Assembly: GCA_023256375.1 (NCBI GenBank)
Contig: JAGDXE010000001.1
Span: forward strand, 1 to 39,615
Length of the DNA stretch: 39,615 nucleotides
DNA from: Thermoproteati archaeon
GTDB lineage: Archaea > Thermoproteota > Thermoprotei_A > Marsarchaeales > UBA168
Direction: 5' to 3'
Under the pieces are notes generated by a model. The model saw only the letters and a list, made by a program, of their open reading frames with translations. It did no database searches and was not told the origin of the DNA. The position numbers were made by a program, and so were the translations under genes. Below are positions 1 through 39,615 of this stretch, piece after piece (position 1 is the first letter of the stretch; each line of letters begins with the position of its first letter).

Positions 1-60
1 GCGGGCAAATCGGGCGTGCCCCACCCTACCGCTACCGCATAAAATTATTAATAAATCTTT
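1..60 (-). mobile_element. Truncated IS605-type tnpB 3'-tail remnant plus upstream AT-rich segment (repeat copy A, runs off window start)
   Basis: Positions 2-37 are identical to 38462-38497, and 38-55 are identical to 38500-38517. The reverse complement encodes VAVGWGTPDLP, typical of the TnpB C-terminal tail. Confidence 0.6.
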
Positions 61-141
61 ATTATTAGGGGGAAATCCGCCTATCTCCTCCCTGAAGGTC
101 GGACTTTTACTGCTTCCCCTAAACCCCTAACTTTCCTATAA

Positions 142-18053: not shown

Positions 18054-18482
18054 TAAGCATACAAACATGAGGAAGACGCTTCAAGAGAAAAGAAGGCTGG
18101 ACGTTGTAAGTAGGCTCAGCAGAAAGGAAACAAAAAGAGCTATGCGCGACCTTCACGTCATATCGAAGGAAGCCGTAAAATACGCGCTTCAATTTCCTTT
18201 CCCGTGATAGTCATAAAAGCTAACGGGCATAAGGAATCGTTTCGACAAGGGCAAGAGGTTAAACAGGAGGTTTCACTCTCTACCATTCAGGAAGCTGTAG
18301 CAGATGATAGAGTACAAGGCAAAGGTTAACGGGGTTAATGGCCTACGTTAATCCCAAGAATACCTCGAAAACCTGCCATGACTGCGGCCATATCGTCGAG
18401 GTAGACGGAAGGGAGTTCAGGTGCCCTAACTGCGGGCTGGCCTACAACCGCGACCTCAACGCGGCCGTAGATAGCCCTTAAC
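18054..18482 (+). pseudogene. tnpB: Degenerate IS605-type TnpB (OrfB) with intact zinc-finger segment
   Basis: Fragments in shifting frames: RHKHTNMRKTLQEKRRLDVVSRLSRKETKRAMRDLHVISKEAVKYAL and NGV-AYVNPKNTSKTCHDCGHIVEVDGREFRCPNCGLAYNRDLNAAVDSP*. Confidence 0.85.
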
Positions 18483-18548
18483 GAGGGGTATGGGTCGGGG
18501 ATAGATAAACAACCTGAGGGGGGGATGAAGGCGCGCCGCGAAGGCCAC

Positions 18549-18590
18549 CCGAAACTAAGGCCCCGCCCGCAAGGACGGGGTAGTCTACCA
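18549..18590 (+). mobile_element. IS605-type right end hairpin
   Basis: CCCCGCCC-GCAA-GGACGGGG at 18561-18580 followed by TAGTCTACC, downstream of the TnpB remnant. Confidence 0.65.
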
Positions 18591-20137: not shown

Positions 20138-20373
20138 GCGCTTATTACTTGGCTATAAGGCTTAGGGCTAAACGCCGATCCAGTAAAAGTATATCCACAT
20201 TTAGGACAACGCCATATACCAACTGCTAACCTTTCCATTGCTACATGCTTACCGCAAGAAGGGCAACGCATCGGCTGCTTTTTTTGGCTCTTTAATCTAA
20301 CGTAATCTCTCCTCAGTTTCATGCCATATTTAACGCCGAGCTCACCGCCAGCCCGTTCCTTAATTACGCTCAA
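20134..20373 (-). CDS. rpl37ae: Ribosomal protein L37Ae
   Basis: CPSCGKHVAMERLAVGIWRCPKCGYTFTGSAF. Confidence 0.95.
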   Translation of the reverse strand: MSVIKERAGGELGVKYGMKLRRDYVRLKSQKKQPMRCPSCGKHVAMERLAVGIWRCPKCGYTFTGSAFSPKPYSQVISA

Positions 20374-38220: not shown

Positions 38221-38372
38221 TACGTATACCTATACTATTTTTAAGGCTAAAATTTAGGATCTTGGCCTGTTTTGTACATAAAGAAGCGGCTTCTGTGTTT
38301 GCCATACTTCCGATCTACTCGCCGGGAAGTCGAAAGCTCCAGGTTCAATGACGCGCCGCTGGTATCAGCGAA

Positions 38373-38540
38373 CTACCCCGCCCTCTGGATGGGGCTTCCC
38401 GCTTCAACGACCGTGCGTTCCCGCACGGGTATATAGTACAGGCCCGAAGCAGCAATCTCCACGGGCAAATCGGGCGTGCCCCACCCTACCGCTACCGGTC
38501 ATAAAATTATTAATAAACCTATAGGGGAGGTCCGCGTATC
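38373..38540 (-). mobile_element. Internally deleted IS605-type element: AT-rich/TATA-like segment + tnpB tail + right-end hairpin (repeat copy B)
   Basis: Minus-strand (P)VAVGWGTPDLPVEIAASGLYYIPVRERTVVEAGSPIQRAG* (stop 38373-38375). Hairpin CCCCGCCC-TCT-GGATGGGG on plus at 38376-38394. Upstream AGGTTTATTAATAATTTTATG. Shared with window positions 2-55. Confidence 0.65.
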
Positions 38541-38657
38541 CCATCGCTGAAGCTTGATTTGTTTCCTCAAGCTCCTAGCATTAGCTTTAAACTCTTAGAT
38601 TCATCAAAGTTTAGCCTTTCTCCTGAAAACTTTTATAAAAATTAAACAAACTATACT

Positions 38658-39457: not shown

Positions 39458-39615
39458 CACGCTTCTAGCCAGAGGGATTATTGGCGCCCTCTAGTCCCTT
39501 CGGCGCTTTCCTGATCATGATTCAGTGATCGCAATAAGTACCAATAGCTTACTGATTGTGAGCAAGAAGGCTCCGAGTAGGAGGAGATGATTTGTGAATA
39601 GTATATAAAAACGTT

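Follow-up and report, generated by a model that had tools for sequence, protein, structure and literature searches.

What is the end of a TnpB-like reading frame doing directly behind a promoter-like box, with the nuclease gene itself missing? The locus lies in a 39,615-nt stretch of DNA from a Thermoproteati archaeon (the window), and its minus strand from 38591 to 38368 reads, in order, TTTAA, a type-A left end, an AT-rich box, a tnpB tail, a right-end hairpin and TTCGC, followed by flanking DNA (Table 1); the sequence GGTTTATTAATAATTTTATG is located at 38519-38500. We regard this anatomy as close to certain. The segment 38586-38368 is a non-autonomous IS200/IS605-type element of about 216 bases, with no long open reading frame and no transposase-coding capacity, which lacks the nuclease gene and retains a promoter-like start and a guide-RNA-encoding stretch side by side. 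A first-pass annotation of the DNA had described an AT-rich box joined to a TnpB-like tail and then a right-end hairpin, and the minus-strand sequence confirms this arrangement. The element is larger than that annotation proposed, as the left end extends to the TTTAA at 38591-38587.

Table 1. Features of the element and of the two further copies in the window.
Feature	Position	Strand	Basis or remark
TTTAA motif, directly 5' of the left end (target site / TAM-like)	38587..38591	-	sequence
Left end type A, sub-terminal palindrome region AGCTAATGCTAGGAGCTTGAGG...CAAGCTTCAGCGATGGGATACGCGGACC	38518..38586	-	common to other copies
AT-rich TATA-like box TTTATTAATAATTTTATG	38500..38517	-	found in nine type A/B copies
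Retained tnpB tail VAVGWGTPDLPVEIAASGLYYIPVRERTVVEAGSPIQRAG*, 40 codons + TAG stop, frame open	38373..38495	-	sequence; PF07282 precedes scaffold in relatives
OmegaRNA-like scaffold	38368..38494	-	covariance model R1: 98 bits, full model length 1-124
P1 hairpin of scaffold, GGGTG-GGGCA-CGCCC	38472..38486	-	covarying stem
Internal hairpin CCGTGCG-GGAA-CGCACGG	38411..38428	-	sequence and fold
GTTGAAGC, most conserved stretch of scaffold	38401..38408	-	near-invariant, alignment A1
Right-end hairpin type B GCCCCATCCAGAGGGCGGGG	38376..38395	-	also in C19:12856, C19:14272 and the C11 tnpA-only element
Predicted guide (flank) TGATACCAGCGGCGCGTCAT	38348..38367	-	after TTCGC end
Second copy, truncated by contig end; type-A left end, AT box 38-55, scaffold start	1..140	-	
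Type-C copy left end, truncated at other contig end; contains GTATATAAAAA	39553..39615	+	

As the 40 codons of the tail form an open frame in the window copy, the locus could be taken for a small peptide gene and not an RNA gene. However, the ATG that ends the AT box (38502) is in a different frame from the tail, so the element is not a short TnpB, and translation from the ATG past the box, out of frame with the tail, yields an unrelated 32-residue read. The tail frame of the copies C9 and C17a, as we read it, also contains early stops. A peptide gene is therefore very improbable.

A DNA search of the host genome (an assembly of 559 kb in 29 contigs, 62% complete) gave 27 matches, the element itself included, the best of the others at E = 8.5e-29, 1.1e-23 and 4.9e-21, so the element is not a product of chance. 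The absence of further copies would have counted against the first-pass annotation; many were found. The matches fall into two conserved blocks, of which one covers the left part together with the AT box and the other the right end. The loci read around them contain three left-end types (A, B and C) and three right-end types in varied pairings, with two scaffold classes between the end modules. The host genome (G000) holds at least 15 promoter-joined copies by hand count. Counted by hand in the same loci were nine copies of type A/B that have the AT box (the window copy, the copy at window 1-140, C19:12856, C19:14272, C28, C4:4583, C9:52739, C11:46880 and C26:18700) and six type-C copies (C17:16094, C23:11712, C26:22175, C11:21829, C8 and C3), most with an AT-rich stretch of their own. 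The left end of the window element is also found in C4:4583, C9:52739, the 1-140 copy, C23:11712 and the intact tnpB element L001. Within the window, the 18-mer TTTATTAATAATTTTATG occurs exactly twice, each time inside an element copy, and the left end at 39553-39615 is nearly identical to the beginning of the full copy around C11:21829-22060. The assembly breaks within copies at both ends of the window contig and at ends of C4, C9, C11 and C13. An exact 28-mer search of the genome_contigs collection gave no match. Outside the host genome, a DNA search of three same-genus genomes gave one match, and covariance model R1 (see below) a few in the same genus, among them type-C copies in G002 and G003 that carry the joint GATAACCAA..CCGATGGTAGGG. 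A protein search with the tail across the order matched only the element's own genome. Judged from a single protein, the closest record that bears a name is Thermoprotei archaeon SpSt-1254, at 73% identity. One set of nested insertions (L047, C23:11500-12200) has a type-C copy at TTAC within an older element.

The nature of the scaffold was addressed with R1, which was built from 13 scaffolds (window copy included) and run against ten genomes of the order; its matches at E ≤ 1e-3 were compared with those of the TnpB C-terminal domain (PF07282). The window copy and 12 others formed the training set, which means that independent evidence comes not from their scores but from the matches in a sister family. 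In that family, of the same order, 18 of 34 R1 matches lie directly behind PF07282 on the same strand, mostly with a gap of 6-7 nt, and the scaffold-linked tnpB frames are often 400-460 aa long. The corresponding count in the window's genus is 2 of 41 (Fisher p = 2.7e-6), and 29 of the 31 scaffold matches in the window's genome have no preceding TnpB domain; since some of the 39 other genus matches follow decayed tnpB genes (e.g. C1, G003a), a match without the domain is not always a promoter-joined copy. The position behind the C-terminal domain in the sister family identifies the scaffold, by comparison, as a tnpB 3'-end (omegaRNA) locus. The link also holds within the host genome, where the tnpB remnant C17:32688 and the promoter-joined copy C19:14272 share a scaffold type, tying the two forms together. 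The full-length relative sought by the first-pass annotation thus exists in the order, as tnpB with the same 3' scaffold, but no intact one was found in the host genome. Rfam gave no match above gathering score in the window. A weak PF07282 match at 20188-20268, with similar weak ones in all three same-genus relatives, was rejected as a tnpB remnant because it reads like a ribosomal zinc-ribbon protein. Separately, window 18338-18590 holds a further tnpB remnant (the zinc-finger part) with a right-end-like hairpin, GCCCCGCCCGCAAGGACGGGGTAGTC.

Comparison of the copies identifies the scaffold as a structured RNA whose helices show compensatory changes. For P1, 21 distinct stems from the copies and genomes, aligned by hand, had 90% of cells paired against 67% when shuffled (0 of 10 000 shuffles as high), with GC, CG, TA, AT, GT and TG all seen at pair 5. 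The long-scaffold class consists of eight sequences, of which six are promoter-joined copies, one is a tnpB remnant and one, from G006, is an unclassified copy. In this class both members of 11 pairs were altered, where shuffles gave 3.0 (0 of 500), and the pairing was destroyed when the partners were slid. The scaffolds of type-C copies retain the helices. The consensus structure of the short-scaffold class, which includes the window copy, was weak, the region of the internal hairpin (38411-38428) varies among copies, and in single-sequence folding the minimum free energy of the window scaffold was no lower than that of shuffles (z = -0.34). Since covariation can stem from the parental tnpB elements, it establishes a structured RNA but not selection on each promoter-joined copy; the constraint on the helices may have acted in those parental elements, before the deletion.

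The AT-rich box stands at a regular distance from this scaffold. In each of the nine A/B copies a match to TTTAWAWA (7/8 or 6/8) begins 25-31 nt ahead of P1, a position that in ten tnpB-linked scaffolds is occupied by coding sequence alone, with a lower mean peak A+T. Type-C copies have the box roughly 40-55 nt from P1, with less regular spacing. A TATA-like box lies 28 to 30 nt ahead of the start codon in several genes of the window (e.g. 13089, 14366, 24191, 36687 and 38658), as expected of leaderless archaeal genes, and the same spacing puts the predicted start of the element at or just before P1. A bacterial promoter/terminator scan found nothing, as expected for an archaeal host. In the full-length relatives, an AT-rich stretch lies between the left end and the tnpB start (GGAAAGACATAATAATATTGC in L001, GGAAAAATTTATGAATATTCC in G005:C58); copy C26:18700 has the comparable GGAAAGATTTATAAGTAATGC, and the box occupies the same position after the type-A left end as these stretches do before full-length tnpB. 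The doubt that the AT-rich segment could be unrelated flanking DNA is thereby removed, as it lies inside the element and is common to the copies. The box could also be a part of the left end that is required for transposition, with no promoter function, since all A/B copies examined have it beside the left end, with hardly any variation in sequence. We consider this unlikely: the minimal copies L058 and L060 carry both ends without the box, the AT-rich sequence differs in full-length elements, where it lies upstream of the ORF, and type-C copies place the box at a different distance. Transcription from the box is somewhat more probable than not.

Whether such a transcript would be used depends on its possible partners. 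The assembled 62% of the host genome yielded neither an intact cognate TnpB nor an intact TnpA that matches the element ends. The only full-length TnpB assembled, L001 (373 aa), keeps its catalytic and zinc-finger residues on inspection; its tail differs and no R1 match adjoins it. The left ends of the copies resemble those of L001 and of G005:C58, the right ends those of G005:C58 and of a tnpA-only element in C11, whose tnpA, flanked by the matching ends, is interrupted by a stop codon. A Y1-transposase-like gene (L037, C7:6956-7297) is also open in its matches in G001-G003 (four genomes); the HUH motif of L037 looks changed by reading (PNAVYVEL), pointing to a possible domesticated relative of TnpA. 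Three IMG/VR contigs (L165, L167 and L168) have a scaffold of the same kind about 1 kb from a gene for a 414-aa TnpB, which is 97% alike across them and ends without the tail. Unrelated genes lie between the two (membrane, zinc and dUTPase-like proteins in L167), GGTATATAAAAAATGC lies upstream in L165/L167, and the sequence past the scaffold varies between viruses; this scaffold is possibly a detached omegaRNA gene in archaeal viruses.

With no intact cognate TnpB and an interrupted C11 tnpA, a relic has to be taken seriously: the element would be an ordinary IS605-derived MITE, its tail and promoter left over from the deletion, and the copies silent or unused by nucleases. In its favour, the assembled genome is essentially limited to a single intact TnpB, lacks an intact TnpA that matches, and abounds in tnpB fragments and nested elements. 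A relic also fits the ends-only copies, in which the left end is joined straight to the right end over roughly 60-70 bp (L058 about 302-370, L060 about 261-321), and the comparable decay described for haloarchaeal PATEs (PMC3119063). However, the promoter-scaffold spacing is fixed in the nine A/B copies despite their differing left and right ends, and the type-C joint is present in three species with the helices kept in their scaffolds. We put the relic at somewhat under an even chance.

The surroundings of the copies are in keeping with insertion. Type-B copies follow TTTAA or TTTAG, most type-A copies TTTAT or TTAAT, and type-C copies TTAC; in Sulfolobus islandicus, TTTAA/TTTAT motifs are described for IS200/IS605 elements, both tnpA+tnpB and tnpB-alone (PMC10640517). 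Orthologues of both genes flanking the window element are adjacent in G001-G003, with gaps of 27 bp in G003, about 214 bp in G002 and 437 bp here; the longer gap in G001 contains a tnpB remnant. The difference between 27 and 437 bp supports an insertion, though the site is not empty to the exact base. Flanks past the right end, the predicted guides, differ among nearly all copies. The guide proposed by the first-pass annotation was likewise the flank past the right end, but comparison with TTCAC-form right ends places its start at about 38367 and not 38369. The 20-mer GCTGATACCAGCGGCGCGTC, which overlaps the predicted guide, had no second match in the genome with up to three mismatches. An 18-nt guide match in viral contigs was rejected, as it was without a TTTAA-like motif and within chance. 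A second, decayed right end downstream of the element was also rejected (alignment score 20 against C26a, with 12 of 500 shuffles as high; nothing with other references). C19:12856 and C19:14272, 1.4 kb apart, have near-identical ends and different scaffolds, and share ~19 nt beyond the right end, a pattern that points to conversion or recombination, or to a guide that moved with the copy.

Guide loci away from their nuclease gene have a reported precedent in Ktedonobacter racemifer, where Altae-Tran et al. in 2021 reportedly described stand-alone IscB omegaRNAs, presumed to act in trans. Those belong to IscB (Cas9-like) and not TnpB, are bacterial, and have the omegaRNA 5' of iscB. The closest known kind of element is the haloarchaeal PATE, from which the promoter-to-scaffold fusion sets the window element apart. 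The PATEs of Haloquadratum, especially HqIRS71, are likewise short, with sub-terminal palindromes at both ends and no inverted terminal repeats, are related to IS605-type transposons, from which some arose through internal deletion, and occur in terminal-only versions; HqIRS71 retains non-coding C-terminal tnpB sequence. The consulted part of that source, which is older than the omegaRNA concept, describes no promoter-tail joint, RNA scaffold or guide (PMC3119063). The omegaRNAs or reRNAs of TnpB (such as ISDra2, SisTnpB1 and the Halobacterium sotRNAs; PMC8612924, PMC10640517, PMC12558985) also comprise the tnpB 3' end plus right end, with a conserved scaffold, a variable flank as guide (predicted here) and a right-end hairpin, and the TTTAA/TTTAT motif at the window element's left end is as in Sulfolobus. 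They differ in that the window scaffold, a candidate omegaRNA, stands apart from any tnpB, with its own TATA-like box. Titles and abstracts searched in an open-access library gave no description of promoter-joined TnpB omegaRNA copies.

Taken together, the window element is probably a palindrome-ended IS200/IS605 derivative that arose by internal deletion, carries a promoter-to-omegaRNA-scaffold joint and is predicted to produce an RNA. The deletion, within a tnpB element, would have taken out the part that encodes the nuclease and fused the left end, with the tnpB promoter, to the tnpB 3' tail (omegaRNA scaffold) and right end; the AT-rich stretch after the same left end in full-length relatives makes this the likeliest and simplest origin. 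Archaeal transcription would start ~25-28 nt past the TATA-like box, at about 38487-38492, and give an RNA of roughly 140 nt with the flank as its 3' end. More tentatively, a TnpA in trans would move the element, and a trans-acting TnpB with the element's RNA would cut the vacated donor site, so that repair restores the copy. Use of this RNA by a TnpB in trans is possible, with the chances somewhat against it. As the cognate TnpB was not found intact in the assembled 62%, the window element stays a candidate orphan omegaRNA, and the promoter-joined copies could constitute a family of free-standing guide RNAs. It would be a considerably bolder claim, and one we think unlikely, that the lineage at large has dispersed, promoter-driven omegaRNAs, programmed by their insertion sites and serving a few TnpBs in trans, which TnpA moves and TnpB maintains: an array of guides outside any CRISPR locus.

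Expression of the copies would mean that the guide RNA of a TnpB is separable from tnpB, self-spreading and able to build up to many per genome. Guides uncoupled in this way would be a step toward separate guide loci like those of CRISPR, and would account for the persistence of palindrome-associated miniature elements despite excision by TnpA.
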